Source of the DNA: Apostichopus japonicus
Lineage: Eukaryota > Echinodermata > Holothuroidea > Aspidochirotida > Stichopodidae
Assembly (NCBI RefSeq): GCF_037975245.1
Contig: NC_092564.1
Location: 15,007,984 to 15,071,983, forward strand
Reading direction: 5' to 3'
Length of the DNA: 64,000 bases
Shown: positions 1-64,000 of the stretch, piece by piece
How positions within the stretch are numbered: the first letter of the stretch is position 1
Layout of the letters: each line of letters opens with the position of its first letter
Notes under the pieces: model-generated
Told to the model about the DNA's origin: nothing
Seen by the model: the letters and a program-made list of their open reading frames with translations, nothing else
The model's database searches: none
Position numbers and translations under genes: made by a program

Positions 1-236
1 GTGTATCTTATCGTGGCAGAAACTTGGCCACGAATGTAACGGCCTATGTCGAAACTTCCGGAAGTGAAGTCGTCTTTAAGTTACCTATTTTGGCACTCAT
101 TGTCTTTCTGATTGTGCTCTTTTATTGGTGATTGCTAAAGCGTGTGGAAGACAGCTACATTGTGAGGCCCGAGGTTACAGAGCAAGAACCAGAGATCTGC
201 GTACAGCAAACAGGACAGAAACACAAAATGGCCGAA

Positions 237-1923
237 GTGAGTGTATGATATTTCATCTTGTAGGATTACTAATAGACTTAACAAACGCTACATCTTCACA
301 AATATTGTTAACATCTTATATTTCTAATTCCAAACTGTTGTTTTCTGTAAGTTTGTAAGTCTGAAGTTAGGCTAAGCCTTTGTTGTGCTAACAACAATCC
401 AGCAAGTATATTTGATCTCAAGTGTATGTATTAATGGACACAATTTTTTTGTAACGCAGCCTGCTGTGAATAAATAGCACATGATTGATATTCATAAAAT
501 TGATGGAGAAAATTATACCAAACACCTTTTCGGTTTCCATGCAATGGACATAACATCTTTGATCCAATTAAAATAGATAAGGTCAGCGCGCGAAAATGAA
601 ATATTTCTGCCTTAACTATAACAAAAGATAACTATATTTCCTTAAATGTATGATATATTGCTATGTATAACCATATTTTGTGTTCGTGATTGCTTACGGC
701 AATACCGAGGCGGAAAGAGTAAGGGGAGGGAGTGAAGTCGGTGCAGCACGAAATGAAGTGTTTACCCCAAAACTATAATCGCTCTGAAAATGTCCATATT
801 CTTTCACAGATGAAGAAAATATACCCGTAACACGTCAGAAAACACAGAGGTAAAAGCCCTCGATATTCAATACTTTACATTACTAAGCAAGTCTCTCAAT
901 GTCTCTACTTCATCAAGGCACCTTTTGAAGGGAGGGAGACATAACGAAGTGGACTTCATTAATTTGGTGATACAATTTCAAAAATTCAAGACCTCCATTG
1001 CCTCATTAAACAGTTTGCACTTTCCTCAAACTGAGAGTTTCAGTCTAGAATATGGATAGGTCTTCCGATTGTAAAGACGTGGACACTCACATTGTATGTT
1101 TAAATATGACAATTGCCTTGTATTGTTTTCATCCCAGGCTAATCATATTCTTGTTTTCTTCATGATTTGCCTTCAAGGTCAGTTCTTCCCAACTTGCCAG
1201 ATGAGATTAATACTTCACAACTTGAAAGAGAAATCGAGACATGTAGGTTTATGAAAATTATTCATTAACGTACAATAAACCTGAAGTGGCCAAAGTCATA
1301 TTGTACACAAAGTTTCATATGGGATATATGAAACAATTTGAAACGACTCATTGAAAAAAGAAAAACGATATAACGCGTTTTGATTTTGAATGTGTAAAGC
1401 TCATTCTAGGAACTAGTGACTAGTCTACAGATAGGGATGTTCAAATAAACATTTTCAACGTTTTCTCGGCGAAGGACGATTGTGGGGGGAAAAACGAAAA
1501 ATAAAAACCAAATATTCAAAGTAGAAAGATATTCGTTTAGTCAGGGTAGTGAGGTGTCATTATGTATATAATATCTTGATTTCACTACTTTTGACATGGA
1601 ATCATAAATGCATAGGTAAATTATTGTCAATGACTGTGGAATTACAGCGATTATGGACTAAAGTTAAAAGGATCGTTCTCGATGTTACCTAAGTTTATTA
1701 AATAAACTGCCATGGTCAACTTAATTGATGTGTCCTACTAAGTGAATAGTGACAATCTGTGTGCATGGTTTTCAATGCTATTGATGGCAATAAATCTTAT
1801 TAGATTATTTTGCAATGTCACTTATTGCATGATGTTCAAATGTTTTATTCTAGTGATATTGAAATGTTGTTACATTTATTCTACAAGAGAAGATGACCAT
1901 GTGCCTGTTTACCTTTCTTTTAG
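237..1923 (+). other. Gene A introns 1-3, with two short juxtamembrane exons
   Basis: The intervals 237-809, 850-1177 and 1243-1923 are introns with GTGAGT/CAG, GTAAAA/AAG and GTAGGT/TAG borders. The 40-nt and 65-nt exons between them encode a hydrophilic juxtamembrane segment containing VLPNLPDEINTSQ. Intron sequence is strongly similar to genes C and D, which shows recent duplication. I see no separate gene here. Confidence 0.7.
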
Positions 1924-3450
1924 ACTACTCTGCAGTGACAACAGACACTCCGGGAAGTAATCGGTTATTTAACGAAGACGATATTTGTCTTATATTAAAG
2001 ATGAAGACCGGGACACTTTACACGAGGTGGATGGGGACAATACCTTTCTCTCTTGGGGTCACCAAATGTGTAGTCCTAACAACCCTCTCTGATGGTAAAC
2101 TGATACATGATCGATTTATCTGATTTCAATAACTAGATGTATAGAACATAAATTTGTACCCTACACAATGATGACCAGGACCCGACTGGTGTGATAATTA
2201 GTTACATTTCAGTTCCAAGACGTATTACACTGCATGGTTGGGGCATTGTTGAGCCCTACTTTACTATTTAACAGCCAGTTTGGTGCTCCTTAACTGCAGC
2301 ATATACAAATGAGACTCCCCCCCTCCCCCAGCCCCATAGCATAGGGCTTAGGAAAGTCTTATTTCAACTCATTTTTTTATGACATGCTTCCGTGAAGAAT
2401 ACTACACGAGAAATAAAATATGCAGATATTAAATATTAAAAAAAAAATATTCTGCCAACAAATATGGAAGTGAGCCACAGGTTTTCACAGTTGCCACCTA
2501 TCATAATTATGTCACAGTGTCTGAAATTGGTCAGTCATGTTATATCGTTTCGAAAAGAATTTACTCACGTTTACCTAAACCAAGGCATATTACCAATACT
2601 TTCACTTTCTTTCTCGTATTCGTAGAAAGAGTTGTCAAACACAGAGACATCCACTGGGATAAATTTGTGCAAACGTCTTTAGACCTACCTGTGACGAATC
2701 ATGTCACGAACATTGAAGGAATTGGGATCGTATATAGTAAGTGCTTATTCTTTCTATTTCAGTATTTGCTTTATTTGCAGCCGCCGTAGGTTTTTTCTGC
2801 ACCTGATCTTTATATTCAGAGATGTGTGAAGAAAAAGACATGTTATGCTTCTTGCATGCCGGGAAGAGATCATCAGGCCTGATGAGGGCTGGTGTCAGGG
2901 CGTGTGGCTACAGCACCGTGACCTGAGGTCAATTATGGTGGCGCTGGAAATATGGGAAAAGGATAGTTTGTTCTCAATTTCGTAAAATAATTAACGAAAA
3001 TGTGGGTGCAATTTGTTTGCTTGTCATGTGAAACATCTACACAATTAACTTCTTATGTAACTATCTCTTCTTTGTAGATCAAATAAATATGATAACTGAG
3101 CATCTTGCGTGTAAAACGTTAGATAATTTCTTGACCTTTGACCCAACCTCACGACAGGGAATTGAGAGGAGCGTCACGTCAGTGCGAGATGTTATGAAAC
3201 ATTTGTCAGGAGTGCTTGAAGGAATGGAAGTTATTAAATCCTACGGGGTGAGTTTCGTCCGTGACTGACAAATTATTGAGTTGAGCCAGTTTGTTTTCGC
3301 TGCAAACTCAGTAATCAATCTTAGCTCCGTATACAAACGGATATGTAGATGCTGAATGTGTCTCTTTATGAGTTTTAGATCTTGCCTTGTGATTAAATTG
3401 TGTCTAACCTTGCGGGAATGCTTGTTACGATTACATTAATTGAACGTAGT

Positions 3451-3521
3451 TGTTGATTTTGGTAGAGCAAAGGGCTCGTTCCTCCGAGGTCCCTGGCTGA
3501 AATCCCGTTCTGCTCGAAATT
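3451..3521 (+). repeat. Degenerate tRNA-like (SINE head) relic in gene A intron 6
   Basis: A tRNA-like stretch has TTGGTAGAGC (A-box-like) and GGCTGAAATCC in the B-box position. Genes C and D carry the same relic at the same intron position, with a better B box (GGTTCAAATCC). It predates the duplication of the kinase-type genes. Stems pair poorly, so it is not called as a functional tRNA. Confidence 0.45.
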
Positions 3522-6419
3522 TTATTTACCCGGTTCGAGTTTCGAAGTCAGTTCTCCGTCGTTCATTTAGTTTTGTAAAATTTAGACCAATGTTAAAGAC
3601 CCATGGTTGGAGTTACGATGAATTGTTTACTACATATCCATGATGTCACCTCCCCAGCTAATACAACACAGTAAGCATAAACTATTAGTTGTTTACAATA
3701 TAGAAACCGGTGTCATGATCTCTATCGTTCTTAACAGCTTAAATGATCTTTAGTTACTAATTTAGTATCAGTCTAAATTTTATCGGTGTAAAACTATCGT
3801 CGACTTTATACTCTTCACATCTCGATCTATGATTTTGTATTTATTCCCCCTTAAGCTCCGTTGAAATGCAGTATTGATTAATATCTCTTCCCGCTGGGCC
3901 ATCGTGTCATTTTATTTATGTTTCCTCGATATTGCTGGAAAATGGACGATTTCTGTCATTATTGGTAGTCATTAAAATGTATAAATGATTCCATTCGGCC
4001 ACAGTTTCTTCATCCTTGTTTCTCAACGAAGAAGATTTTATACACCAAACAGGGACAATGTAAGTTGTATGACTTCTGTCTTGCAGAGGATGCACCAACG
4101 ATTTGCGCCCACAAGAAATCAGAGGTAAACCTGTTGTTTCCCTTCATTGTTCTGCTGGTGCTAAGTGCGTCTCATTATGCAGACGAAATGAGTCGAGTCT
4201 TTATAACATCTTCTCACATAATGTTTGGCTAAGGAAAAACGTTTCAAGTAAAGGAAGTAGCCTGAAAGGAAATATGAAATTATTCATTCATAATCAAGGA
4301 GGATGGGTCAGGCGGGCACCTCAAAAATGCTCGTTTTCATAAATAACTTCTCGTTTGTAATTTAAATAATCCTTCTTTATAATTGTATGATTTCTTTATA
4401 TTATTTAAACTACTCTTTTGCTAAAAATAAAGAGAATAAGAAAGAATTTAAATGTACCCGTTTGTTGACGAACATATACAAATAATGTATAGCATTGCTA
4501 AGAATGAAATGACAATTTATTTTTGGTTTGGAAATCTTTTACATTTCATTGACTTAATATTGTTTATGTTTATGATTCCGGTGTAATGCAATGCCTTGAA
4601 AGAACAGCTGTTCTCATCTCACTGTTTCTTCCTTTAACATTCCTTTCTTTCCTCTTTTTCACAACTGTCCTAACTTCTTGTTTTGTTTGTAGATGAAATC
4701 GGTGACGTTGAACCAGTTCGCTCCAGAAGCTTTCTACGGAAATGAATATTCAGCAGAGAGTGATGTCTGGTCAACAGCTGTTGTTATATGGGAAATTAAT
4801 TCAGCTGGTGAAAAGCAATCAAATAAAACTATCATAAAAATAAAAATACACACACTTTGTACATATTATATCGATCAAATAGTAGGCGAGCAAAAAGAAG
4901 TAAAATCAGCTTCTTCGCGTATACCTTACTTTGCCGTAACACCAAAATGCTACAATGTGAAACTATATACCGATGCTATAGCGAATGTATATATACTGTC
5001 ACGCATATATAGGAGTAGTAAATAATCATTGACGTACTCACGACTAAAAAATGAAGATCCACGAATTTGATACCAGTTCGACTTCAGTTTATCATTTATT
5101 TGGCTTTTGATCTGGCGACGGTAACATTTCCAAACCCACAAGTTAATTCAGAGGTTCAGAAGATTGATAAAAGTGAAATATACTAAAGAGAGCTCGCAGT
5201 GTTAAGTTGGCACGACTCGATTAGCTGTCTTGATACCAGAAAGTATGTTGTAACTAGGATAGTTAGGACCACTGCTATCTGCACAAATCAACGAAGTTAT
5301 AATGTTTAAGTAATTAAGAAAACCGAAGTAAGTGAATGCTTCCTTTGCAAAGGCTTGTTTTATTTTCAAACACCTTTTACAAAGGTAAGATGAGAGTAAT
5401 AATTTAGAAACATTAAAGGTTCAACTACTGCAACGTAAGGATATCAGTATTTGTTTGCTTTTTAGGTTATAAACCTTTCCCAATTAATGAGGAATACAAG
5501 CCAGGGGATGTCATTCCCATGCCAAAGACGCCATGGCCGGAGAAATATCTGCAGTTAAGGTAGCTTTATATGGATTATTAGTTACAAATGTCGATTCTAT
5601 ACTGGCATTTCCAGGAACTCAACCATTACTTCATATGTCTGCAGGTTTTACACTTTTTTGTATCATTTCTAATACTTCTGTTATCACTTACTGGCTGCTA
5701 CCATTTTTGACGACGAATTACACGAACATTAATCAACGAATTTAGGAAATAAACCCACAGCTGATAGAATGTCACTTTCCGCATTGGAGTAGTGAGAGGA
5801 GAAAAGGTTCCCTATACTGCTTAGTATCATTCAAATTAGACACGATTTATCTACATCTGGTCTCCTTCCCCGACCCCCACCTCTTACTGTCTTACATCAT
5901 GGTCCAGGTATACTATATTTCTTTTGTCTCTTTTTTGAGGTCAGGTGAGACATTTGCTGAAGAATTTAGAATGATTTTTTCGACTTTCGAATGACTTTGT
6001 TATTGTTCCACAGAAACACGCTTTTATTTGAATGCTGGAGTGAAAACATGTCCCTTCGACCATCTATACACCATCTGAGGGATTCTTTTAAAACGGTACT
6101 TATTTTAGATTACAACAGTAAACAGTATTTAAGGAAACAACTTGACATCCTTGCTCGTTTTATCCTGTCTGCATGGCAGAAATGTTCGTACTTAAACTAT
6201 CACGGTGATATATCAAGTTGACGTTATCAAACCCAGAAAATATAAAGAAGGAACAATGTCTGCTACAAAGTATTGATATAACAGGTTTTCCGTCTGTTTT
6301 ATTTTTCTCGACAGATTTTTGATAAGTTAATAGACAATAGCCTCTATGAGATACCGGTATCATCTTTGTATACAAGGATGATTTCTCCAACTGACGACTG
6401 CGTGGAAGGGAAAGAATGA

Positions 6420-8840: not shown

Positions 8841-8844
8841 ATTT

Positions 8845-11339: not shown

Positions 11340-11462
11340 TACTCACGGCATTGCTGAAACATGTTTCCATTCAATGACTTTTCACCTTCAAAACTATGAC
11401 GTCATAATCAAGGCACAATAAATCCGTCACCGTGTGTTCAGAGGCTCGAAGAATCATCAGTC

Positions 11463-11610
11463 AATATCGGACACTTGCGGTATCTGTATTATAATATTCA
11501 ATAAAGAGATTATTCGTTTTGTTGTAGAAATTAACTATACGAGTATCTGACATGGTAAGAATCTTTTTGATCCAGGAATCATCTGCTGACATTACACGAG
11601 CTGCTTAGTT
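11463..11610 (+). promoter_or_regulatory. Conserved 5' leader/proximal promoter of gene B
   Basis: The 148 bp before the start codon are closely matched upstream of genes C (37773-37921) and D (50622-50769), including CGGACACTTGCGGTATCTG, a TTCAATAAAGAGA stretch and GATCCAGGAATCATCTGC. Sequence further upstream diverges more and holds the MITE. The leader ends in TTAGTTATGG, a good initiation context with G at -3 and +4. No clear TATA box was recognised. Confidence 0.5.
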
Positions 11611-13032
11611 ATGGAGAGGAGAGGAAAAATCTGGTTTGTTGGAATCATTGCTAGCAGGCCAATTCAAATAATGTTTTTACTAGTCAATTTAGCAAACTTA
11701 GTTATGCTTTGCTTGGGAGAGGAAACTATTGTGATAAATAAATTATGGAAGGAACATATAATCCGATCAGAGGGACAAACAGTGACCTTACGCTGTATAA
11801 GTAATGGTAATGTCACAATGTTCCGAATAGAGACACTAAAGAACGACAGTCAGGCAAAGATTGTGATGAATTCATCGCTGCTTGAGGACTTCACTGGCAG
11901 TTATATTTTCCACTCCACGAAGAATGGATCAGACTTAATTAATGACTTAACTATTAAAGATGTCACCAGGGATTTTAACGGTTCCTTATTTCGATGCGTG
12001 GACCATATTACGTTCAATCCACAGGAGCTTTCATTGAGAGTGCTATACAGTCCAAGACGTGAATATCCACAGTGTACATCCAGTTCTACCTATCCAATAT
12101 ATTTCACTGATCAAATTGGTGAACCTTTTGATTTAACCTGTATCTCAGAAGAAGGAAATCCGAGAATAAAACTCTCCTTACAAAACACGCTGACACTGAT
12201 AAACAGTTCGTCCGTTACTCTTGGAGAGAATAAAACTCATCGATATGTTGAATTGAATGCTAAACTCGATAGTAAATGGAACAACAGTATGTTTTATTGT
12301 TACGTTGTACAATCTTCTCCAGGGATGGTTGATTATAGTGCTAATTGTTCATTTGGTCCAATACAGTTTGTGGATGAATTAACTATCATTACGAATACAT
12401 CGAATGTGTCATTTAAAGAAGGAAAGAAGATTATGTTTTCTTGTAAGAGTAATTTTGATGCTGCTTACAAACAATGGAACATAGTAGATATTCCGAAACA
12501 TGTTTCGTATTCCAGTTCAAATGATTCAGATTTGATATACTTAGAAATAGATGTTAGTACTTTGACAAAAGATACCCTAATAACATTAGACTGCTTTGTA
12601 TCTTATCGTGGTAGAAATTTGACCACGAATGTAACGGCCTGTGTCGAAGCTTCTGTAAATGAATCAATCTTACCTATTCTCGTTACCTTAGCCGCACTCT
12701 CAATGGTGCTCTCAATTTTACTAAGTATCGTCGTAATGAAAATAGTGAATAAAAGTCAGAAAAAACAAAATTATAACATAGATATATCAATAGACGGCTC
12801 TAATGACAGCATAGAAGGACACACATACACTACACCAGAAGAGAGTCAGTTAAATACAGGTTTACATATTGACAGATTATCTGTAGAGGAAAATCTTGAT
12901 TACGAAGAAATACCGACAGTAGCCTGTGACATGATACCTAATGTTGTATATGAGCCATGTTCTGTGGATGCATCATCATCAGCTATTCTAGATGAGAGGA
13001 TTCAGGGACCACAGCAAGGTAACTCGTCATAA
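11611..13032 (+). CDS. Gene B: three-Ig membrane receptor with ITIM-like / Src-SH2-type tail, no kinase
   Basis: This single-exon reading frame of 473 aa is probably a type I cell-surface receptor. An N-terminal hydrophobic signal lies near residues 16-36. Three Ig-like domains follow: Ig1 (Cys62-Cys129), Ig2 (Cys177-Cys230) and Ig3 (Cys278-Cys328), with many N-glycosylation sequons. The membrane helix is about 353-377. The roughly 95-residue cytoplasmic tail is unlike genes A, C and D. It contains LDYEEI at 429-434, which fits the ITIM pattern and is also a classic pYEEI-type SH2 ligand, plus VVYEPC (Tyr447) and HTYTTP (Tyr406). The ectodomain closely matches C and D, and the start codon is conserved. 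An inhibitory or adaptor-recruiting role is inference from the motifs. A possible splice donor (AAGGTAACT) just before the stop could allow another ending. Confidence 0.9.
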   Translation: MERRGKIWFVGIIASRPIQIMFLLVNLANLVMLCLGEETIVINKLWKEHIIRSEGQTVTLRCISNGNVTMFRIETLKNDSQAKIVMNSSLLEDFTGSYIFHSTKNGSDLINDLTIKDVTRDFNGSLFRCVDHITFNPQELSLRVLYSPRREYPQCTSSSTYPIYFTDQIGEPFDLTCISEEGNPRIKLSLQNTLTLINSSSVTLGENKTHRYVELNAKLDSKWNNSMFYCYVVQSSPGMVDYSANCSFGPIQFVDELTIITNTSNVSFKEGKKIMFSCKSNFDAAYKQWNIVDIPKHVSYSSSNDSDLIYLEIDVSTLTKDTLITLDCFVSYRGRNLTTNVTACVEASVNESILPILVTLAALSMVLSILLSIVVMKIVNKSQKKQNYNIDISIDGSNDSIEGHTYTTPEESQLNTGLHIDRLSVEENLDYEEIPTVACDMIPNVVYEPCSVDASSSAILDERIQGPQQGNSS

Positions 13033-13043
13033 TGAGGACATAA

Positions 13044-20700: not shown

Positions 20701-20715
20701 AGGAGGGGTTGGGGA

Positions 20716-30292: not shown

Positions 30293-30620
30293 CGCGATGA
30301 ATATGGAACACGATCACATGGTTCAGCCTCTGTTGAGTCATGGTGCTCCGTAGCCTTGTCTTCAAACGCCTCAGAGCACTAAAAGATCTCTCGGCTTCCG
30401 TCGAACTGGCAGAGGAGACGAGGAGCAACCGCAAGAGAGCTTCGACTTCACCAAACATAGCCCGTACCACTGGATTCATCAACTTGAATATTTGTCCATA
30501 CCCTTCAACCGACAACGAATTTAACTGGCCTCGAAATAAAGGCAGACTAAGCTTAAGATTGTTGGAGAGCTCAGGGTACCAACTCACGAGATCTGGGTGG
30601 AATTCTCCATTCAGCAACAT
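30240..30620 (-). pseudogene. hAT transposase C-terminal dimerisation domain remnant
   Basis: The minus-strand frame of 126 aa contains LLLVSSASSTEAERSFSALR and KTRLRSTMTQQRLNHV, the hallmark of the hAT family C-terminal dimerisation region, as in animal ZMYM/THAP-like domesticated and active transposases. The catalytic RNase H-like core and the N-terminal zinc finger are absent. The last 15 or so residues come from a neighbouring repeat, not from the transposase. It lies next to the right end of the 27150-30793 element and belongs to it. Non-functional. Confidence 0.85.
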
Positions 30621-30793
30621 TGAGTGATATTCGAGGATATGAATCCTAAGATGTGTAAGCCGTAACCAAATAGAGCCACGACACTACTCTTTTTCCAAAT
30701 GTGTGGGGGGACATTTGATATTGTTTCAACCATCCATCGAAATGTGGGGGGGACGTGTCCCCCCGTCCCCCCCCCCCTGGATTGACGCCCATG

Positions 30794-37700: not shown

Positions 37701-37772
37701 CGTCATAAATCAAGTCACAACAAATGTGTCACCTTATGTTCAGAGGCGGGGCTCACAGAAATCATCAGTTAA
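34715..37772. other. Spacer upstream of gene C: no gene seen
   Basis: Homologous to 47450-50600 (spacer C-D) and partly to 7140-10700. Contains poly-G at about 35300 and poly-C at about 37530. No reading frame of note and no SINE at the site occupied in the A-B spacer. Confidence 0.55.
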
Positions 37773-37921
37773 TGTCGGACACTTGCGGTATCTGTATCTT
37801 ACTTTTCAATAAAGAGAGCGTCGTTTCGTTTTACAAATTGTCTATACGAGTCACTATCTGACAGGGTAAGAATCATTTTGATCCAGGAATCATCTGCTGA
37901 CATTACACGAGCTGCTTAGTT
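37773..37921 (+). promoter_or_regulatory. Conserved 5' leader/proximal promoter of gene C
   Basis: Same conserved block as before genes B and D, ending TTAGTTATGG at the start codon. Unlike gene B, no MITE lies upstream. Confidence 0.5.
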
Positions 37922-40900: not shown

Positions 40901-43900
40901 CTTGTTCCTTGTTTCCCAATTTGCACATTGGATATTGCAGTGCTATATGCATATTTTCCTTGAGGGGGGGGGGACGTTGATGGAGTGATGTGTATATGCA
41001 AATAAGATAATACAATAAGAGTTATAAAGGGTACTAAATATAATGCTGCATCAGTCCAATCGAATTTCTGCAAAGTGCCCTTTGATGTTGGTGCTCCCCC
41101 CCCCCCAGATTGAAAGTGCTTCCGCCGCCCTTGGTTAAAAGGATCGTTCTCAATGTTACCTAAACTTATAAAAATGATGTTCACATATTTCATTCTAGGA
41201 ATATTGAATATTGTTTTTTTCTACAAGAGAAGATGACTATGTGCCTGTTTGCCTTTCTTTTAGACTACTCTACAGTAACAACAGACACTTCGGGAAGTAA
41301 TCGGTTATTTAACGAAGACGATATTTGCCTTATGTTAAAGATGAAGACCGGGACACTTTACACGAGGTGGATGGGGACAATACCTGTCTCTCTTGGGGTC
41401 ACCAAATGTGTAGTCCTAACAACCCTCTCTGATGGTAAAGTGATATATATATAATCGATTTATCTGATATCAATAACTAGATGTATAGAATTAGATTTGT
41501 ATCCTACACAAAGATGATAAGGACCCGGCTGGTTGGTGCGATATTTTATAATTATAATTCCAAATCCAATTATTACACTGCACGGTTGGGGCATTCATAA
41601 TAAATTACTATTTTACAGCCAGTTTGGTGCTCCTTAACAGCAGCATAAACAAATGTGACCCCCCCCCTCCCATCCCAGAGTATAGGGCCTAGGCAAGTCT
41701 TAATTCAACTGATTTTCTATGACATGCTTCCGTGAAGAATACTACACGAGCAATAAAATATGCAGATATTAAAAAAAAAAAGTTCTGTCAACAAATATTG
41801 AAGTGATTCACAGATCTTCAAATTTGTCACATATGTTACATTGTCTGAAATAACGTTCAGTCATGGTATATCGTTTCGAAAAGATTTACTCACGTGTACC
41901 TGAACTAAGGCATATTACCAATATTTTCACTTTCTTCCTCGGATTCGTAGAAAGAGTTGTCAAACACAGAGACATCCACTGGGACAAATTTGTGAAAACG
42001 TCTTTAGACCTACCTGTGACGAATCAAGTCACGAAAATTGAAGGAATTGGGATCGTATATAGTGAGTGTTTATTCTTTCTATATAAGTTTTTGCTTTTCT
42101 TTTTCAGCAGTTGTAAGTTGTTTCTGCACCCGATCTTAATATTAAGAGATTTGTGAAGAAGAGAAACATGTTATGCTTCTTGCATGCAGTGAGAAAAAAC
42201 ATTAGGCCTGACGCAGTGCATAGTGTCAGGGCGTAGGGTTACAGCACCGTGACCTGAGGTCGATGATGGTGGCACGGGGAATATGAAGAGGGACATAATA
42301 TGGGAAAAAAGGTGTCTTCTCATTTTCGTAAAATAATTTACGAAAATGTGGGTGCAATTTGTTTGCTTGCCATGTGAAACATCTACACAACAACATGTTA
42401 CTCTTGGTAACTCCACAAGATCTAAGTGTTTTAATGTGAACTAACTTCTATAGTAACTATCTCTTCTTTGTAGATCAAATAAATATGATAACTGAACATC
42501 TTGCGTGTAAAACGTTAGACAATTACTTGAACTTTGACCCAACCTCACGTCAGGGAAGTGGGAGGAGCGTCACGTCAGTGCGAGATGTTATGGAACATTT
42601 GTCAGGAGTACTTGAAGGAATGGAAGTCATTAAATCCTACGGGGTGAGTTTCGTCCGTGACTGACAAAATATAGAGTTGAGCTGGTTTGGTTTCGCTGCA
42701 AACTCAGTAATCAATCTTGGTTCCGTGTACAAACGGATATGTAAATGCTAAATGTGTCCCTTTATGAGTTTTATATCTTGCCTTGTGATTAAATTGTGTC
42801 TAACCTTGCGGGAACGCTTGTTACGATTACAATAATTGAATGTATTTGTTGATTTGGTAGAGCAAAGGGCTCGTACCTCCGAGGTCCGTGGTTCAAATCC
42901 CGTTCTGTTCGAACATTTATTTACCCGGTTCGAATTTAAAAGTCAGTTCTCCGTCGTTCATTTTGTTTATAAAATTAGTTGACATTTCTTTTGTTAAAGA
43001 GCCATGGTTCGAGTTTCGATGTATTGTTTACTACATATCTATGATGTGACCTTCCCCCCAGCTTATACAACACAGTAAACATAAACTATTAGTTGTTTAC
43101 GATATAGAAACCGGTGTCATGATCTCTATTGTTCTTAACAGCTTAAGTGATCTATAGTTACTAATTAAATATCAGTCTAAATTTTATCGGTGAAAAACTA
43201 TCGTCGACTTTATACATCTTCACATCTCCATCAATGATTTTGTATTTATTCCCCCTTAAGCTCCGTTGAAATGCAGTATTGATTAATATTACTTACTGTT
43301 AGACAATAGTATCATTTTATTAATGTTTCCTCGATATTGCTGAAGAAACCCGACGATTTATGTCATGATTGGCAATCATGAAAATTATATCAATTCCAAT
43401 CCGCCACAGTTTCTCCATCCTTGTTTCTCAACGAAGAAGATTTTATACACCAAACAGGGACAATGTAAGTTGTATGACTTCTGTCTTGCTGAGGATGCAC
43501 CAACAATTTGCGCCATCAAGAAATCAGAGGTAAACCTGCTGTTTCCCTTAATTGTTCTGCTGGTCCTAAGTGCATCTCATTACGCAGACGAAATGAGTCG
43601 AGTCTTTAAAACTTCTCCTAATATAATGTTTGGCTAAGGAAATTTAAAGTAAAGGAAGTAGCCTGAAAAGAAATATGAAATTATTCATTCATAATCAGGG
43701 ACGACGGGCCAGCCGGGCACATGCCCTTCCAGTTTGGGGGATAACTTCAAAAATGCTCGTTTTCATAAATTACTTCTCGTTTGTAATTTAAATACCCCTT
43801 TTTATAATTTTATGCGTTCTTTATATTATTTAAACTGCTCTTTTTGCTGAAAATTAAAAGGAAAGAAAGAATTTAAATGTACCCGTTTATTGACAAACAT

Positions 43901-45840
43901 ACAAATAATGTATATTATTGCTACGAACGCACTGAGAAGTTAATCTTTGTTGGAAATTTTTCATTCTTCACTGATATAAAATTGTTTTTGTTTATTATTC
44001 CGGTGTAATTCAATGCCTTGAAAGAACAGCTGTTCTCATCTCACTGTTTCTTCCTTTAACATTCTTTTCTTTCCTTTTTAAAAAAAAATAAAACCTGTCC
44101 TAACTTCTAATTTTGTTTGTAGATGAAATCGGTGACGTTGAACCAATTCGCTCCAGAAGCTTTCGACCGAAATGAATATTCAGCAGAGAGTGATGTCTGG
44201 TCAACAGCTGTTGTTATATGGGAAATTATTTCAGCTGGTGAAAAGCAATCAAATAATACTATCATGAAAATAAAATACCAACGCTTTGTAAATATTATTC
44301 GATCAAAAAGTATGCGAGCATAAAGAGGTCAAATCAGCTTCTTCGCTATACCTTACTTTGCCGGAACACCAAAATGCTACAATGTGAAACTATATACCGA
44401 CGCTATAGCGAATGTATATATACTGTCACGCATATATAGGAATAGTAAATAATCATTGAGGTACTCACGATTAAAAAATGAAGATCCACGAATTTGATAC
44501 CAGTTCGACTTCAGTTTATCATTTATTTGGCTTTTGATCCGGCGACGGTAACGTTTCCAAACCCACAAGTTAATTCAGAGGTTCAGAAGATTGATAAAAG
44601 TGAAATATACTAAAGAGAGATCGCAGAGTTAAGTTGGCACGACTCGATATTCTGTCTTGATACCAGAAAGTATGTTGTTACTAAGATAGTTAGGACCACT
44701 GCTATCTGCACAAATCAACGAAGTTATAATGTTTAAGTAATTAAGAAAACCGAAGTAAGTGAATGCTTCCTTTGCAAAGGCTTGTTTTATTTTCAAACAC
44801 CTTTTACAAAGGTAAGGTGAGAGTAATAATTTAGAAACATTAAAGGTTCAACTACTGCAACGTAAGGATATCAGTATTTGTTTGCTTTTTCAGGTTATAA
44901 ACCTTTCCCAATTAATGAGGAATACAAGCCAGGGGATGTCATTCCCATGCCAAAGACGCCATGGCCGGAGAAATATCTGCAGTTAAGGTAGCTTCATAGG
45001 GATTATTAGTTACAAATGTCGATTCTATACTCTCATTTCCAGGAACTCAACCATTACTTCATATGTCTGGTTTTACACTTTTTTGTATCATTTCTAATAC
45101 TTCTGTTATCACTTACTGGCTGCTACCATTTTTTGACGACGAATTACACGAACATTAATCAACGAATTCAGGAAATAAACCCACAGCTGATAGAATGTCA
45201 CTTTCCGCATTGGAGTAGTGAGAGGAGAAAGGGTTCCCTATACTGCTTAGTATCATTCAAATTAGACACGATTTATCTATATCTGGTGTCCTTCCCCGAC
45301 CCCCAACTCTTACTGTCTTACATCATGGTCCAGGTATACTATATTTCTTTTGTCTTTTTGAGGTCAGGTTAGACATTTGCTGAAGAATTTAGAATGACTT
45401 TTTCGACTTTCGAATGACTTTGTTATTGTTCCACAGAAACACGCTTTTATTTGAATGCTGGAGTGAAAACATGTCCCTTCGACCATCTATACACCATCTG
45501 AGGGATTCTTTCAAAACGGTACTTATTTTAGATTACAACAGTAAACAGTATTTAAGGAAACAACTTGACATCCTTGCTCGTTTTATCCTGTCTGCATGGC
45601 AGAAATGTTCGTATTTATACTATCACGGTGATATATCAATGTGACGTTATCAAACCCAGAAAATATAAAGAAGACAATGTCTACTACAAAGTATAGATAT
45701 AACAGGTTTTCCGTTTGTTTGTTTTTTCTCGACAGATTTTTGATAAGTTAATAGACAATAGCTTCTATGAGATACCGGTATCATCTTTGTATACACGGAT
45801 GATTTCTCCAACTGACGACTACGTGGAAGGAAAAGAATGA
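37922..45840 (+). CDS. Gene C: intact three-Ig receptor pseudokinase
   Basis: Eleven exons join in frame to 763 aa: 37922-39140, 39716-39755, 40082-40146, 41264-41434, 41951-42061, 42474-42643, 43410-43529, 44123-44237, 44894-44987, 45437-45518 and 45736-45840. It has a signal peptide, three Ig-like domains, a membrane helix (about 353-373) and a kinase-like domain (about 460-725). Key losses: the beta3 Lys is Thr494 (VVLTTL), HRD is HPC (595-597), and DFG is DFC (615-617). APE (642-644) and SDVWS are kept, so it is a predicted pseudokinase with RTK-like order. The tail has FYEIP (Tyr740), LYTRM (Tyr748, a PI3K-type YxxM) and DDYVEG (Tyr758). Ig1 lacks its first Cys (Tyr62). Intron 3 carries a hAT MITE. 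Probably a cell-surface signalling scaffold; the ligand is unknown. Confidence 0.85.
40475..41133 (+). mobile_element. hAT-like MITE in gene C intron 3, with empty sites in genes A and D
   Basis: A 659-bp element with perfect 14-bp inverted ends CAAGGGCGGCGGAA / TTCCGCCGCCCTTG and exact 8-bp duplication GTTAAAAG (40467-40474 and 41134-41141). Genes A (near 1660) and D (near 53630) have a single uninterrupted GTTAAAAG at this spot, so insertion followed the split of C from A and D. Non-coding. Confidence 0.95.
42850..42915 (+). repeat. tRNA-like SINE relic in gene C intron 6
   Basis: TTGGTAGAGC and the B box GGTTCAAATCC (42890-42900) are kept. Same position as the relics in genes A and D. Poor stem pairing argues against a working tRNA. 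Confidence 0.5.
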
Positions 45841-50621: not shown

Positions 50622-50769
50622 GTCGGACACTTGCGGTATCTGTATCCTACTTTTCAATAAAGAGAGTGTCGTTTCGTTTTACAAATTGACTATACGAGTC
50701 ACTATCTGAAATTGTAAGAATCATTTTGATCCAGGAATCATCTGCTGACATGACACGAGCTGCTTAGTT
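50622..50769 (+). promoter_or_regulatory. Conserved 5' leader/proximal promoter of gene D
   Basis: Same block as before genes B and C, ending TTAGTTATGG. A donor-like GGTAAGAATC present in the leaders of B and C is TGTAAGAATC here. Confidence 0.5.
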
Positions 50770-51822
50770 ATGGAGAGGAGAGGAAAAATCTGTTTTGTTG
50801 GAACCATTGCTGCCAGTTCAATTCAAATACTGTTTTTCCTTGTCAATTTAGCAAACTTAGTTATGCTTTGCTTCGGAGAGGAAACTATTGTGATTGATAC
50901 AGTATGGAAGGAACATATAATCCGATCAGAGGGACAAACAGTTACCTTACGCTGTATAAGTAAGGGTAATGTCACAATGTTCCGAATAAAGACACTAAAG
51001 AACGACAGTAAGGCAAAGCGGATTGTGATGAATTCAACGCTGGTTGAGAATTACACTGGCAGTTTTATATTCAACTCCACAAAGAATGGATCAGACTTTA
51101 TTAATGACTTAACTATTAGAGATGTCACCAGGGAATTTAACGGTTACTTATTTCGATGCTTGGACCATGTTATGTTCAATTCACAGGAGCTTACATTGAT
51201 AGTGCTATACAGTCCAAGACGTGAATATCCACAGTGTACACCCAGTTCTACTTATCCAATATATTTTACTGATCAAATTGGTGAACCTTTTGATACAACC
51301 TGTATCTTACAAAACGGTAGTCCAAGAATAAACCTCTCCTTACAAAACACTCACACACTGATAAACAGTTCGTCCGTTACTCTTGGAGGGAATAAAACTC
51401 ATCGATTTGTTGAATTGAATGCTAAACTCGATAGTAAATGGAACAACAGTATGTTTTATTGTTACGTTGTGCAATCTTCGCCAGGGATGGTTAATTACAG
51501 TGCTAATTGTTCATTTGGTCCAATACATTTTGTGGACGAATTAACTATCATTACGAATACATCGAATGTGTCATTTAAAGAAGGAAAGAAGATTATGTTT
51601 TCTTGTAAGACTAATGTTAATGCTGCTTACAAACAATGGAACATAGTAGATATTCCGAAACATGTTTCGTATTCCAGTTCAAATGATTCAGATTTGATAT
51701 ACTTAGAAATAGATGTTAGTAATTTGACAAAAGATACCCTAATAACATTAGACTGCTTTGTATCTTATCGTGGTAGAAAGCTGACCACAACTATAACGCT
51801 TCGGCAAGTGAATTCATCTTAA
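50770..51822 (+). CDS. Gene D ectodomain frame: predicted secreted three-Ig protein
   Basis: This 350-aa frame has the family signal peptide and three complete Ig-like domains, including both Ig1 cysteines that gene C lacks in part. At about 51798 it lacks 13 nt present in genes A, B and C. The frame shifts at ...TTTITLRQVNSS and ends at TAA 51820-51822, just before the membrane segment. As written it encodes a soluble, heavily glycosylated ectodomain, which could act as a decoy for the ligand of the membrane forms. It may equally be an early pseudogene. Confidence 0.75.
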   Translation: MERRGKICFVGTIAASSIQILFFLVNLANLVMLCFGEETIVIDTVWKEHIIRSEGQTVTLRCISKGNVTMFRIKTLKNDSKAKRIVMNSTLVENYTGSFIFNSTKNGSDFINDLTIRDVTREFNGYLFRCLDHVMFNSQELTLIVLYSPRREYPQCTPSSTYPIYFTDQIGEPFDTTCILQNGSPRINLSLQNTHTLINSSSVTLGGNKTHRFVELNAKLDSKWNNSMFYCYVVQSSPGMVNYSANCSFGPIHFVDELTIITNTSNVSFKEGKKIMFSCKTNVNAAYKQWNIVDIPKHVSYSSSNDSDLIYLEIDVSNLTKDTLITLDCFVSYRGRKLTTTITLRQVNSS

Positions 51823-52374
51823 TGTTACTTGTACCTATTTTGACATTCATTGTCATTCTGATTGTGCTCTTACTGGTCATTGCTAAAACGTGTGAAAGAC
51901 AGCTACATTGTGAGGCCCGAGGTTACAGAGAAAGAACCAGAGATCTTCAGACAGTAAACAGGACAGAAACACAAAATGGCCGAAGTGAGTGTGTGATATT
52001 TCATCCTGTAGGATCAGTAGTATAGACTGAGTAAACGCTACATCTTCATAAATATTTTTAACATCTTATATTTATAATTCCAAACTGTTGTTTTCTGAAA
52101 GTTTGTGAGTCTGACTTAGGCTAAGCCTTTGTTGTGCCAACAACAAGCCAGTAAGTATATTTGATCTCATGTGTATGTATTCATGGACACAAATTTGTTG
52201 TAACGCATCCTGCTGTGATTAAAAACCACATTGATTGCTATGCATAAAATTGATGGAGTTAATCATACCAAACACCTTTTCGGTTTCCATGCAATGGACA
52301 TAACATCTTTGATCCAATTAAAATAGGTAAGGTCAGCGTGCGATATAAAAAAGATAACTTTGTTACCTTAAATA

Positions 52375-52623: not shown

Positions 52624-55367
52624 AAATGTATATATATATTACTATGTATAACCATATTTTGTGTTCGTAATTACATACCGTAATCTAATTTCGAGGTGGA
52701 AGGAGTAGGGGGAAGGAATGGAGTCGGTGCAACACGAAATGAAGTGTTTACCTCAAAACCATAATCGCTCGGTAAATTTACGTATTCTTTCACAGATGGA
52801 GATAATATACCCGTAACAAGTCAGCAAATACAGAGGTAAAGCCTTCGATATTCAATACTTTACTATACTAAGTTAAACTAGGCAAGTCTCTACTTCATCA
52901 AGGTACCTTTTGTAGGGAGTGAGTCTTAGGGAGACATAACGAAGTGGACTTAATTAATTTGGTGATACAATTTCAAAAATTCAAGACCTCCATTGCCTCA
53001 TTATACAGTTCGAACTTTCCTCAAACTGAGAGTTTCAGTCCAGAATATGGATAGTTCTTCCGATTTTATATTTTGTATATGGCATTTGTTTTGTATTGTT
53101 TTCATCTCAGGTGAATCATATTCTTATTTTCTTTATGATTTTCCTCCAAGGTCAGTTCTTCCCAACTTGCCAGATGAGATTAATACTTCACATCATGAAA
53201 GAGAAATCGAGACATGTAGGTTTATAAAAGTTATTCATTAACGTACAATAAACCTCAAGTGGCCAAAGTCATATTGTACACAAAGTTTCATATGGGATAT
53301 ATGAAACAATTTTAAACGACCTTAAAAGAAAAACAAAAATAACGCGTTTTGAGTTTGAATGTGTAAAGCTCATTCCCTATCTGACTAGCTGAGGAACTTG
53401 ACATAGAGATGATCAAATAAACATTTTCAACGTTTTCTCGCCAAAGAACAATTATGGAAGAAAAAAACGAAAAATAACAAATTCAAAGCTGAAGGATATT
53501 CGTTTAGTCAGGGTAGTGAGGTGTCATTATGTATTTATTATCTTGATTTCATTACATTAGATATGGAATCATGAATACATAGGTAAATTATTGAAAAAGA
53601 CTGTTGAATTACAACGATTATGAACTAAAGTTAAAAGGATCGTTCTCAATGTTACCTAAACTTATAAAAATGATGTTCACATATTTCATTCTAGGAATAT
53701 TGAATATTGTTTTTTCTACAAAAAAAGATGGTCATTTGCCTGTTTGCCTTTCTTTTAGACTACTCTACAGTAACAACAGACACTTCGGGAAGTAATCGGT
53801 TATTTAACGATGACGATATTTGCCGTATGTTAAAGATGAAGACCGGGACACTTTTCACGAGGTGGATGGGGACAATACTTGTCTCTCTTGGGGTCACCAA
53901 ATGTGTAGTCCTAACAACCCTCTCTGATGGTAAACTGATATATATAATCGATTTATCTGATATCAATAACAAGATGTATAGAATTAGATTTGTATCCTAC
54001 ACAAAGATGATTAGGACCCGACTGGTGTGATATGTTATAATTGGTTACATTTCAATTCCAAGAAGGATTACACTGCATGCTTGGGGCATTTTGAATATAA
54101 TACTTTACTATTTCACAGCCAGTTTGGTGCTCCTTAACAGCAGCATATACAAATAAGACTGCCCCACCCATCCCCAGAGTACAGGGCTTAGGCAAGTCTT
54201 ATTTCAACTGAGTTTTATGACATGCTTCCGTGAAAAATACTACACGAGCAATGAAATATGCAGATATTAAAAAAAAGATGTCATGACAACAAATATTGAA
54301 ATGAGTCACTGATCTTCAAAGTTGTCACCTATAATATGTTACATTGTCTGAAATATCGTTCAGTCATGTTATATCATTGCGAAAAGATTTTACTCACATG
54401 CACCTAAACTAAGGCATATTACCAATATTTTCACTTTCTTCTTCGTATTCGTAGAAAGAGTTGTCAAACACAGAGACGTCCACTGGGATAAATTTGTGAA
54501 AACGTCTTTAGACCTACCGGTGACGAATCATGTCACGAAAGTTGAAGGAATTGGGATCGTATATAGTGAGTGCTTATTCTTTCTATTTCAGTATTTGTTT
54601 TAATTTTCAGCCGTTCATACTTTATTCTGCAACTGATCTTAATATTCAGAGATGTGTGAAAAAGAGAAACATGTTATGCTTCTTGAATGCCGGGAAGAAA
54701 TCATCAGGCCTGATGAGTGCTGGTGTCAGGGCGTGGGGTTACAGCACCGTGACCTGAGGTCAATGATGGTGGCACGGGAAATATGGAGAGGGCCAAAATA
54801 GAGGGAAAAGGATAGTGTCTTCTCATTTTCGTAATATAATTTACGAAAATAATTGATGAAAATGTGGGTGCAATTTGTTGGCTTGCCATGTGAAACTTCT
54901 ACACAGCAACATGTTACTTTTGGTAACTCCACAAGATCTAAGTGAATAATGCGAATTAACTTCTAATGTAACTATCTCTTCTTTGTAGATCAAATAAATA
55001 TGATAACTGAGCATCTTGCGTGTAAAACGTTAGATAATTACTTGACCTTTGACCCAACCTCACAACAGGGAAGTGGGAGGAGCGTCACGTCAGTGCTAGA
55101 TGTTATGAAACATTTGTCAGGAGTACTTGAAGGAATGGAAGTCATTAAATCCTACGGGGTGAGTTTCGTCCGTGACTGACAAAATATAGAGTTGAGCTGG
55201 TTTGGTTTCGCTGCAAACTCTGCAGTAATCAATCTTGGTTCCGTGTACAAACGGATATGTAAATGCTAAATGTGTCTCTTTATGAGTTTTAGATCTTGCC
55301 TTGTGATTAAATTGTGTCTAACCTTGCGGGAACGCTTGTTACGATTACAATAATTGAATGTAGTTGT

Positions 55368-55433: not shown

Positions 55434-58043
55434 TTTATTTACCCGGTTCGAATTTAAAAGTCAGTTCTCCGTCGTTCATTAAGTTTATAAAATTAGTTGA
55501 CATTTCTTTTGTTAAAGAGCCATGGTTCGAGTTTCGATGTATTGTTTACTACATATCTATGATGTGACCTTCCCCCCAGCTTATACAACACAGTAAACAT
55601 AAACTATTAGTTGTTTACGATATAGAAACCGGTGTCATGATCTCTATTGTTCTTAACACCTAAGTGATCAATAGTTACTAATTAAATATCAGTCTAAATT
55701 TTATCGGTGAAAAACTATCGTCGACTTTATACATCTTCACATCTCCATCAATGATTTTGTATTTATTCCCCCCAAAGCTCCGTTGAAATGCAGTATTGAT
55801 TTATATCACTTCCCGCTGAGCCATCGTATCATTTTATTTATGTTTCTTCGATATTGCTGGGGGGAAAAACAACGATTTATGTCATTATTGGCAGTCATGA
55901 AATTCACTCATTCATGAAATCTATTTCATTCGGTCACAGTTTCTTCATCCTTGCTTCTCAACGAAGAAGATTTTATACACCAGACAGGGACAATGTAAAT
56001 TGTATGACTTCTGCCTTGCCGAGGATGCACCAACGATTTGCGCCATCAAGAAATCAGTGGTAAATCTGTTGTTTCCCTTCATTGTTCTGCTGGTCCTAAG
56101 TGCGTCTCATTATCCAGACTAATGAGTCGAGTCTTTATAACATCTCCTTATATAATGTTTGGCTAAGGAAATATGTTTCAAGTAAAGGAAGTAGCCTGAA
56201 AAGAAATATGAAATTATTCATTCATAATCAGGGACGGCGGGCCAGGCGGGTACATGGGGCACATGCCCTTCCAGTTTGAGGGGATAACCTTAAAAATGCT
56301 CGTTTTCATAAATTAATTCTCGTTTGTAATCAAATTCCCCTTCTTTGAAACTTGTATGCGTTCTTTATATTATTTAAACTTTTTGCTGATAAGAAAAAGA
56401 AAGAATTTAAATGTACCCGTTTGTTGACGAACATATGCAAATAATGTATAGCATTGCTAAGAATGAAATGACAATATATTTTTGGTTGGAAGCCTTTTAC
56501 ATTTCATTGATTTAATATTGTTTATGTTTATGATTCCGGTGTAATGCAATGCCTTGAAAGAACAGCTGTTCTCATCTCACTGTTTCTTCCTTTAATGTTC
56601 CTGTCTTTCCTCTTTTTTTACACCTGTTCTTACTTCTTGTTCTGTCTGTAGATGAAATCAGTGACATTGAACCAATTCGCTCCAGAAGCTTTCTACCAAA
56701 ATGAATATTCAGCAGAGAGTGATGTCTGGTCAACAGCTGTTGTTATATGGGAAATTATTTCAGCTGGTGAAAAGCAATGAAATAAAACTATCATGAAAAA
56801 TAAAAATACACACGCTTTGTATATATCATATCGATCAAATAGTATGCGAGCAAGAAGAAATAAAACCAGCTTCTTCGCGTATACCTTACTTTGCCGTAAC
56901 ACCAAATGCTATAATGTGGAAGTATATCGATGCTAAACAATATAGTGATTTTTTCCAATTACATATAAACGCTGCAAATTTATACTGCCAGGCTATCAAT
57001 TCAGATTCAGATTAAAACAGTTTCAGTGTAATGTAACTATACATTACTACTAAAGTGTTTCTTTGATTGGCTATCAATTCTGTGTAATATATTTGATAGA
57101 AGTGTGTTAAGTTTACACCCGGGGAACAATTCCTTTAAAGCCAACATATTTTACAAAGGTAAGATGAGAGTAATCATTTAGAAACATTAAATGTCCACCA
57201 ACAACGTTAGGATATCAGTATTTGTTTGCTTTTTCAGGTAATAAACCCTTCCCAATTAATGAGGAATACAAGCCAGGGGATGTCATTCCACTGCCAAAGA
57301 CGCCATGGCCGGAAACATATATGCAGTTAAGGTAGAGATGAACTATGCCCTTACTTCATATGTCTGGATTTGCACCTCTTTGTATCATTCTTAAAACTTC
57401 TGTTATCACTTACTGGTTGCTATAATTTAAGTCGACGAATTACATAAATATTAATCAACGAATTTAGGGAAGGAACCCACAGGGATAGAATGTCATATCT
57501 CTCCGCAGTGGATTAGTTGATGGTGAGGATATAAGGTTCCCTAGACTTTGTCTCCTTATTTGGAGGTGACGTTAGATATTTGCTGAAGAATTTAGAATGA
57601 TTTTTGCGACTTTCGAATGCCTTTGTTATTGTTCCACAGAAACACACTTTTATTTGATTGCTGGAGTGAAAACATTTCCCTTCGACCATCTATTCACCAC
57701 CTGAGGAATTCTTTTAAAACGGTAATTATTTCAGATTAAAACAGTAAACAGTATTTAAGCACACTATTTGACATCCTTGCTCGTTTTATCCTGTCTGCAT
57801 GGCAGAAACGTTCGTACTTATAATATCACGATGATATATCAATGTGACGTTATGAAACCCAGAAAATATAAAGAAGACAATGTCTACTACAAAGTATAGA
57901 TATAACAGGTTTTCCGTTTGTTTGTTTTTTCTCGACAGATTTTTGATAAGTTAATAGACAATAGCTTCTATGAGATACCGGTATCATCTTTGTATACACG
58001 GATGATTTCTCCAACTGACGACTACGTGGAAGGGAAAGAATGA

Positions 58044-62360: not shown

Positions 62361-63610
62361 TAATAATAATAATACATAATTTTTATATAGCGCCAAACAA
62401 CCTATGAAATAATTCTCGTAGCGCTTAACAAAATAAAAACAATTATAACATATATGCTTTGGTGAAGAGATACGTTTTGAGTGCTGATTTGAAACTGTTC
62501 ACAGTATTGCACATTTTTATATGTTCTGGAAGTGAGTTCCACAGGCACGGTGCACTGGATGCAAACGTTTTCAAGCGGTTAGTCTGTGTTTTTACTCTAG
62601 GGATGAGTAAGTCAGTGATGAATTAGAGCGAAGTGGGCGTGTGGATGATGGTCGGAGCTGAAACAAGTTGGTGAGGTAGCTTGGTCCTAGATTGTGCATA
62701 TATTTGAACACCATCAGAAGTAGTTTGTAGTTGATTGGTTCACGTATCGGGAGTCAGTGGAGTTCCACATGGTAGGGGTAATGTGATCATACTTCCGAGT
62801 TCTAGTAACGAGACGTGCGGCGGTGTTTACTACGCATTGTAGCCTGTCAATTTTACAGCCTGGTAATCCATACAGAAAACTATTGCAGTAGTCGAGCTTC
62901 GACGTAACGAATGCATGGACAAACTTTATACATGAATCTCTGTCGAGGTACTTTCTGATGTGACCAATGTACCGGATACTAGACAGGGTGCTTCGGCAAA
63001 CGTGTTGAATATGTCGATCCATTGTCATGTGATTATCAAAAATGACACCAAGATTGCGGAGATGATCAGTGTAGTTGATACTGGTGTCACCGACGGAGAC
63101 GAGGGGAATGGTGTGTGTTGGCCTAAACCGAGACTATACATATGTATCACTGCTGTCTTACTATCATTCAGTTTTAATTTGTTTGTTAACAACCAACTTC
63201 TTATATCTGACAAACAGTATTCCAAACGTTGTAATTCTGAGGAGTGGTTGTCACCAAAGCTTATATATAGCTGGCTGTCGTCGGCATAACACATGTAAGA
63301 AAGTTGGTGTCGGCGCATGATATCACCAAGGAGCCCCATGTGTAAACTCAACAATGTCGGACCCAATACAGATCCCTGTAGTACGCCCCACTCTAATGCA
63401 TGTGTAGCAGAGAGGTCATTGCCTAACTGGACAGCTTGTGATCGAGCCATTAGGTATGATTCTATCCATTGCAGGACTTTTCCATTGAGACCGTAACGGA
63501 ATTGCAGGCGATTTACTAGTATGACATGGTCAAGCGTATCAAAAGCCGCACCTAGGTCCAGCATTATAAGGACGACATGGCGGCCAAGGTCCAGCTGCTG
63601 CAGAATATAT
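62361..63610 (-). mobile_element. CR1/L2-type LINE fragment with reverse transcriptase core
   Basis: The minus strand encodes part of a reverse transcriptase (63025-63564) with AAFDTLDHVILVNRL, GVLQGSVLGP and the catalytic YADD in SYMCYADDSQLY. After a frameshift comes the C-terminal region (62714-63028) with LDYCNSFLYGLPG and AARLVTRTRKYDHITP. The element is 5'-truncated inside the RT domain and ends in an (ATT)n tail at 62361. Further frameshifts show it is dead. Comparison with the DNA upstream of genes C and D places the insertion between GGTATTGCGGTATA and AGACGGACC. Confidence 0.88.
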
Positions 63611-63920
63611 AGACGGACCTCGCATAAACAGATTAAGATGTTACAAATATAGACGTAGCCGGATTAATATTTAGTAGATATTACTAATGTATTCTCCCGG
63701 CTCCTCCTATTAGTGGCTTCTCCGTTGTAGTCATCGTGTAAACATCCAATCATTAACCACTTTTTCTACAAACAGTTGAGATAAAAACGGAATTCTGAGA
63801 AAAAGCGTTGAAGTTTTTAGATAAAACGTCAAAACTTCCTCAATGTCTTAGGTTCCTGAAAACCGCAATTTTCTTCTCAAACCCGTCGCTTAAGAGGTGG
63901 AGTTGCTTCTTCGCCGCATT
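63611..63920. other. Spacer leading toward the next family gene
   Basis: Host DNA matching 37240-37510 upstream of gene C and 10431-10610 upstream of gene B. No coding content. Confidence 0.5.
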
Positions 63921-64000
63921 CTGAAATAATTAAAGATTTCTTCAATTCAATTCCAGATATCTGACAATAATTCCAGATATCTCGAATTAAATTGAAGATA
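63921..64000. mobile_element. Right part of the GATATC-rich promoter MITE, cut by the window end
   Basis: Matches 11222-11300 of the MITE before gene B almost base for base. The left part of the MITE and flanking DNA (equivalent to about 10610-11222) are deleted here. Its presence implies that the next gene downstream is B-type. Confidence 0.75.

Follow-up and report, generated by a model that had tools for sequence, protein, structure and literature searches.

The stretch of DNA analysed here, a window of 64,000 nucleotides from the sea cucumber Apostichopus japonicus (C4:15007984-15071983), lies within a tandem array of immunoglobulin (Ig) receptor genes; coordinates below are window positions, negative values being upstream of its left edge. 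A tblastn search with the protein of open reading frame (ORF) B over a neighbourhood of 274 kb (-150000 to 124000, the window with 150 kb to its left and 60 kb to its right) identified ten ectodomain copies, all on the + strand, from -81627 to 65738, with starts at -81627, -69701, -55176, -39231, -18830, -1005, 11590, 37901, 50749 and 64296. The array is ~147 kb long and extends beyond the window at both edges, and the same search found no further ectodomain copies in the 68 kb left of the array or in the 58 kb to its right, up to the limits of the neighbourhood searched. Genome-wide (671,581,487 bases, 35 contigs), an ectodomain search returned the same ten copies, the other matches listed being 24-43% identical (90 of 115 candidates scored). 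The window contains three complete ectodomain exons, in the ORFs 11590-13032 (B), 37901-39205 (C) and 50749-51822 (D), and a fourth (A, start -1005) reaches into it only with its 3' end, to ~155. An earlier sequence-only reading of the window had described four family members on one strand with closely similar ectodomains; the common strand and the similarity stand (the A, C and D proteins are 80-85% identical to the B protein, and the start codons of C and D, at 37922 and 50770, are 12,848 bp apart as it had stated), but the array is larger, with ten copies running past both window edges.

Judged by their sequences, the copies are of two gene types that have one ectodomain, an I-type with a tyrosine tail and a K-type with a predicted pseudokinase, and are arranged as K K I K I K I K K I (K1-K6 at -81627, -69701, -39231, -1005, 37901 and 50749; I1-I4 at -55176, -18830, 11590 and 64296). 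The I-type gene is a single exon encoding a hydrophobic signal segment, three Ig domains (Ig1-3), one membrane segment and a tyrosine tail of 94-95 residues, and its reading frame is open in all four copies. The motif LDYEEI is kept in all four tails, and VAYDMI is also present in those of I1 and I4 (two of four). Pfam finds two Ig domains in I3, with ig and C2-set_2 barely over the cut-off and Ig_3 barely under it, whereas the third Ig domain is inferred from its cysteine spacing and from the aligned Ig_3 match, over the cut-off, of a relative outside the array (L031). The membrane segment of I3 was placed by hydropathy, and a search of its protein against solved structures gave nothing convincing (best E 0.013, a WD-repeat protein). 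The features of I3 are:

11611-13032, + strand: I3 (ORF B), single-exon receptor with Ig1-3, membrane segment and tyrosine tail, 473 amino acids, frame open, tail with LDYEEI.
11365-12653, + strand: part of I3 common to the K-type genes, comprising ~225 bp of 5' flank, the signal segment and Ig1-3.

The K-type gene model was built on K5 from open frames, GT/AG sites and phases, and transferred to the other copies by alignment. It has eight predicted exons, the first encoding the signal segment, Ig1-3, the membrane segment and a juxtamembrane part, and the following seven a tyrosine pseudokinase; all seven introns are GT-AG in the predicted splicing of all six copies. The K5 model encodes 735 amino acids, and its spliced kinase part matches PF07714 with 96.5 bits (E 2.1e-27) over profile positions 61-256, the positions before 61, and with them the N-lobe, being without a match. 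In the alignment to FGFR3, HRDLAARN is replaced by HPCFSTKK and DFG by DFC, which makes this part a pseudokinase by sequence; the replacement of the VAIK lysine by threonine was seen by eye only, in the N-lobe outside the profile match. Like receptor tyrosine pseudokinases, K thus combines a kinase fold, recognised by profile, with the loss of catalytic residues, and its intracellular part is predicted to be catalytically dead. An FVRD motif, considered as a mutant HRD, was rejected because a GT donor precedes it and the next exon holds the actual loop, HPC. The K-type features in the window are:

1-236, + strand: 3' end of exon 1 of K4 (ORF A), which starts left of the window at -984; frame shifted in the membrane segment by a 2-bp insertion, stop near 155.
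1924-2094, 2626-2736 and 3078-3247, + strand: pseudokinase exons 2-4 of K4, GT-AG kept.
4005-4124, 4693-4807, 5466-5559 and 6014-6221, + strand: pseudokinase exons 5-8 of K4, GT-AG kept.
37676-38964, + strand: part of K5 common to the I-type genes.
37922-39140, + strand: exon 1 of K5 (ORF C), signal segment, Ig1-3, membrane segment and juxtamembrane part; first Ig1 cysteine replaced by tyrosine.
41264-41434, 41951-42061 and 42474-42643, + strand: pseudokinase exons 2-4 of K5, predicted model.
43410-43529 (with HPCFSTKK and DFC), 44123-44237, 44894-44987 and 45437-45644, + strand: pseudokinase exons 5-8 of K5.
50770-51984, + strand: exon 1 of K6 (ORF D); 13-bp deletion after Ig3 with frameshift, stop before the membrane segment.
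53759-53929, 54455-54565 and 54989-55158, + strand: pseudokinase exons 2-4 of K6, splice sites kept.
55940-56059, 56652-56766, 57238-57331 and 57640-57847, + strand: pseudokinase exons 5-8 of K6, splice sites kept.

The sequence-only reading had assigned four different endings to the family, two of them, in A and D, being stops within and before the membrane segment. The stops are present, A ending in the membrane segment because of its 2-bp insertion and D before it because of its 13-bp deletion. However, since the same seven pseudokinase exons, with splice sites kept, lie downstream of A and D (in K4, the ORF 4693-5025 matches the kinase profile with 31.2 bits), A, C and D are one gene type, and the four endings reduce to two, pseudokinase and tyrosine tail, plus copies whose frames are disabled by indels. 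As the stops of A and D precede seven introns, their spliced transcripts should undergo nonsense-mediated decay, and both copies are better read as disabled K genes than as functional soluble or truncated isoforms, which seem the less likely reading. Single-base homopolymer errors are an unlikely source of the frameshifts in the array, the indels being of 2, 4, 8 and 13 bp (K3 has a 4-bp insertion and an 8-bp deletion).

The similarity between the two gene types is confined to a sharply bounded block. In an identity profile of the aligned copies, taken in 100-column steps around the start codon, the mean identity between K and I copies is 0.84-0.95 in the interval of about -225 to +1063 relative to that codon and 0.34-0.56 outside, and the block ends at the start of the membrane segment. 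Within the ectodomain, K-I identity (~0.91) is about equal to K-K and I-I identity. In the 3' part, I-I identity is 0.92-0.98 and K-K identity 0.87-0.96, with a drop to 0.75 in the final step. Upstream of about -300, identity among the I copies is only 0.53-0.85, whereas among the K copies it remains at 0.89-0.96. K3 and its neighbour I2 have a run of 33 consecutive variable sites alike, which none of 2000 permutations reached (p=0.0005, or about 0.02 when corrected for the 45 pairs), and the global fragment statistic (sum of squared fragments) exceeds all 500 permutations. The K-K runs K1-K3 and K1-K5 also survive correction, and the K-I runs I3-K6, I1-K6, K3-I4 and K1-I2 are below 0.05 only when uncorrected. 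In the best ectodomain tree, K6 falls within the I copies (supports 64 and 77). The tract tests support gene conversion within the array, including between the neighbours K3 and I2. I1 and I2 are likewise mosaic, differing by 1.1% in the 3' part and by 5.7-6.9% in the 5' flank and ectodomain, and conversion of the 3' part could also be the origin of this pattern.

Since some 300-bp stretches are 98-99% identical between units, and K3 and K5 differ by only 2-4%, we considered whether the assembly had placed copies of one gene, or two haplotypes, in tandem. This seems very improbable, as every other K-K and I-I pair is at least 5% different in both ectodomain segments compared, the copies carry distinct indels, and the assembly was made from HiFi reads with a contig N50 of 17.20 Mb according to the accessible portion of its description (PMC10344927).

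The ratio of nonsynonymous to synonymous substitution rates (dN/dS), which the sequence-only reading had proposed to compare among the Ig domains, was estimated pairwise by the Nei-Gojobori method with bootstrap intervals, for the ectodomain domains over all ten copies with the disabled ones included. It is 1.25 (0.69-2.32) for Ig1, 0.46 (0.30-0.82) for Ig2 and 0.47 (0.26-0.85) for Ig3, and 1.29, 0.41 and 0.45, respectively, in the seven copies without a frameshift. All seven positions with four or more residue types lie in Ig1 (nine copies, K3 left out). Ig1 is therefore unconstrained or diversifying, positive selection not being proven. For the membrane segment and tail of the I-type the ratio is 0.59 (0.32-1.37), and for the pseudokinase 0.25 (0.14-0.46) in K1, K2 and K5 and 0.40 (0.27-0.60) in all six K copies.

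Taken together, the locus appears to be built like a paired-receptor system: near-identical, clustered ectodomains are joined to two unrelated intracellular parts, and ectodomain sequence appears to have been exchanged between the types. We give a probability of roughly 0.55 to the reading that this ten-gene tandem array, with two receptor types and one ectodomain, works like paired receptors. The sequence-only reading had likewise suggested an invertebrate paired-receptor locus, correctly as to the invertebrate source, and its clustering and homogenised ectodomain are borne out, but the activating and inhibitory marks that it saw or implied are weak or absent. Vertebrate activating paired receptors generally signal through an immunoreceptor tyrosine-based activation motif (ITAM) or adaptors. 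Here, ITAM spacing was not seen by eye in the K and I sequences, and the membrane peaks of I3, K5 and K1, the three proteins examined for this, contain no charged residue, so that neither feature of an activating arm is in evidence. The inhibitory label for the I-type is weak, because one match per tail to an immunoreceptor tyrosine-based inhibitory motif (ITIM) is expected by chance in about 1 of 5 cases (shuffle p about 0.2); two ITIM-like matches per tail (p about 0.02) occur in only two I copies.

Several further observations, like the chance-level ITIM match, count against paired function. Among the single-exon relatives outside the array (see below), four of eight tails tested have one ITIM-like match and none falls below p 0.05. 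The third domain of I3 has no Pfam Ig match, and the ectodomains of K5 and K6 have Ig matches in Pfam below threshold only. The dN/dS interval of Ig1 spans 1, and the K membrane and juxtamembrane parts show no sign of constraint (0.95, 0.36-3.4; K1, K2 and K5). After correction, a single K-I tract is significant, the other two being K-K, and the approximately unbiased (AU) test retains a tree in which K and I ectodomains form separate groups (p=0.137), contrary to wholesale mixing. The frame is open through the kinase domain in only two of six K copies (K1 and K5), of which K1 is affected by small in-frame deletions and a premature stop in its C-tail, and K5 is without the first Ig1 cysteine. 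Much of this would also fit a birth-and-death process of tandem duplication, in which the I genes are the working receptors, the K genes are dying passengers of a chance fusion, and the likeness of the ectodomains stems from recent duplication and non-selective conversion. The open frames (4/4 in I against 2/6 in K), the lesions of K2 (a nonsense codon in exon 6), of K3, K4 and K6 (frameshifts) and of K5 (the lost cysteine), and the failure of the AU test to reject separate K and I trees are all in its favour. We nevertheless regard it as rather unlikely, since the low dN/dS of the pseudokinase points to constraint during at least much of K history, the splice sites are kept in all six K copies, and the K type was amplified to six copies.

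The K-type gene may have its origin in two large families found elsewhere in the genome. Outside the array, the ectodomain search gave 67 matches in 63 places, at least 46 of these on C11:26.0-28.4 Mb (with 90 of 115 candidates scored), and 38 places have one uninterrupted frame of at least 430 amino acids. In each of the nine relatives read by eye and alignment, an Ig3-like frame is combined with a membrane segment and a tail that bears tyrosines, and L032 apparently has one extra Ig domain; Pfam, run on seven, finds Ig over the cut-off in L031 and L033, weaker matches in four and none in L027. One single-exon Ig3 relative, L030 (C11:18424500-18427500), has a tail of about ten near-repeats of YLVP (one YLAP), resembling that of a multi-site docking protein. 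The second family is that of the pseudokinase. Exon 5 of K5 has 49 matches listed outside the array (122 of 815 candidates scored), of which one, on C2, belongs to an ordinary kinase that has HRD and DFG. All five other loci read, which were picked among the exon-5 matches, show HPxxxTKK and DFC and have similar exon borders, and exons with FLHPxxxTKK/DFC occur on C12, C16, C17, C18, C19 and C11. The genome has 36 sites encoding LYDFCLA, compared with 3 for the reversed pattern; six of the 36 belong to the K copies, and of the other 30, 18 lie on exon-5 matches. A genome-wide scan with the kinase profile, in which 139 of 1266 candidates were scored, was unsuited to counting pseudokinases, since the exons of the array itself were missing from its list. 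A further tyrosine kinase exon (profile about 116-187) recurs at C17:13.17-13.61, C18:8.70-14.26, C19:8.83-9.14 and C21:8.45-13.48 Mb, and in the one read (L024) HGD replaces HRD.

The usual gene of the pseudokinase family seems to be multi-exon, because the membrane segment apparently lies in a separate exon in L040 and L041 and weak, sub-threshold Ig matches lie upstream in L039 and L040. Exon 1 of K, in which Ig1-3, membrane segment and juxtamembrane part are continuous, accordingly resembles an Ig3 unit to which pseudokinase exons were joined. For L042, a pseudokinase locus within the Ig3 cluster on C11, no single-exon Ig3 unit was found in the 3 kb upstream; other chimeras were not looked for elsewhere. 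We tentatively propose a germline echinoderm paired system, in which the single-exon Ig3 tyrosine-tail family captured the intracellular half of the receptor-pseudokinase family, giving one gene-converted ectodomain, diversifying in Ig1, with two readouts. The K genes would have arisen when a single-exon Ig3 unit joined exons of this large pre-existing family, most copies now decaying. Gene conversion would keep the binding part of K and I alike while the membrane-distal Ig1 diversifies, and the K and I receptors could therefore have identical or overlapping sets of ligands. Once phosphorylated, the I tail may recruit SH2 proteins, pYEEI being a classical Src-family SH2 motif, whereas the intracellular part of K, which would not catalyse phosphorylation, may act as a docking or dimerisation module with a different output, or as a competitor.

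The kinase part of K also raises the possibility that these are growth, adhesion or regeneration signalling genes. According to the available part of a study of A. japonicus (PMC6018497), the species has 38 'Fgfr' genes, which mostly form a separate clade and show activity in gut regeneration, and Ig-pseudokinase genes like K may belong to this set; no mention of immunoglobulin was found in that part. Among the best 60 of 1708 solved-structure matches, the kinase part of K scores best against FGFR3 (59.9 bits), a narrow lead, with Fes, EGFR, Eph and BTK within about 4 bits. However, K lacks the catalytic residues of the FGFR family, in which HRD and DFG are conserved, the seven solved-structure matches to I3 up to E 10 (by sequence only) include no FGFR, and the I-type genes have no kinase. 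We therefore consider this explanation improbable. Should the paired-receptor reading be correct, the locus could help separate an Ig-pseudokinase family from the reported 'Fgfr expansion', if the two overlap.

Other features noted in passing are a fragment of an RVT_1 reverse transcriptase (63025-63663, - strand), a C-terminal fragment of a hAT transposase (30240-30683, - strand) and a higher G+C content between I3 and K5 (~20-32 kb). The mitochondrial-type contig C35 carries a cox1 in which AAA and AGA stand at positions expected to be Asn and Ser and TGA stands for Trp. This agrees with the echinoderm code, and a sponge or cnidarian origin of the DNA, which had been considered, was dropped. 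Elsewhere in the assembly, C29 (31 kb), a contig distinct from C35, carries five separate cox1 pieces with in-frame TGA.

Genes of this kind are not evident in the open-licence literature covered, which leaves an earlier description elsewhere conceivable: no sea cucumber or echinoderm ITIM-Ig genes were found in it, and the portions available mention neither immunoglobulin nor tyrosine kinase (PMC5638244), nor either of these or ITIM (a Holothuria glaberrima preprint, PMC13228809), while 12 of 16 places in a 2026 review of immune diversification (PMC13428168) contain no Ig receptor array. The invertebrate allorecognition or paired-receptor work found there, likewise in part, concerns Botryllus and Hydractinia. 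As far as the available text describes them, Hydractinia Alr and Botryllus FcoR resemble the array in being large, clustered germline families with tyrosine motifs, but this text mentions neither a pseudokinase partner nor an ectodomain homogenised across two gene types (PMC12065747, PMC11999971). Nor was the readout of one ectodomain by a tyrosine tail and a dead kinase met in the open-licence portions on paired, allorecognition and pseudokinase receptors.

PTK7 contains Ig domains. In the accessible part of PMC13259870, PTK7, ROR, RYK, HER3 and EphB6 are, like K, receptors with a kinase fold minus essential catalytic residues; unlike them, K belongs to an HPxxxTKK/DFC set scattered over many places of the A. 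japonicus genome, and none of the five is among the best 60 of 1708 solved-structure matches to K. The best-known paired receptors with homogenised ectodomains are those of vertebrate immunity. Siglec-11 and Siglec-16, as the available text of PMC5701461 describes them, have near-identical Ig ectodomains, as the array has, and repeated conversion keeps the ligand-binding region of the inhibitory and the activating receptor alike; opposed outputs and non-functional partner alleles are features of the Siglecs. By this analogy, K and I would recognise common ligands and differ in output; the two outputs may oppose each other, and either receptor may act in immunity. CEACAM1/3 and CD300A/C are, in the sources consulted in part, further vertebrate paired Ig receptors resembling the array, though in CEACAM3 the activating partner signals by ITAM or adaptor, whereas the second type of the array is a pseudokinase. 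If the paired-receptor reading is true, echinoderm immunology would gain a concrete, testable locus, and the sea cucumber array would represent an independent solution with the same gene logic as these vertebrate pairs and a pseudokinase as one of its outputs.

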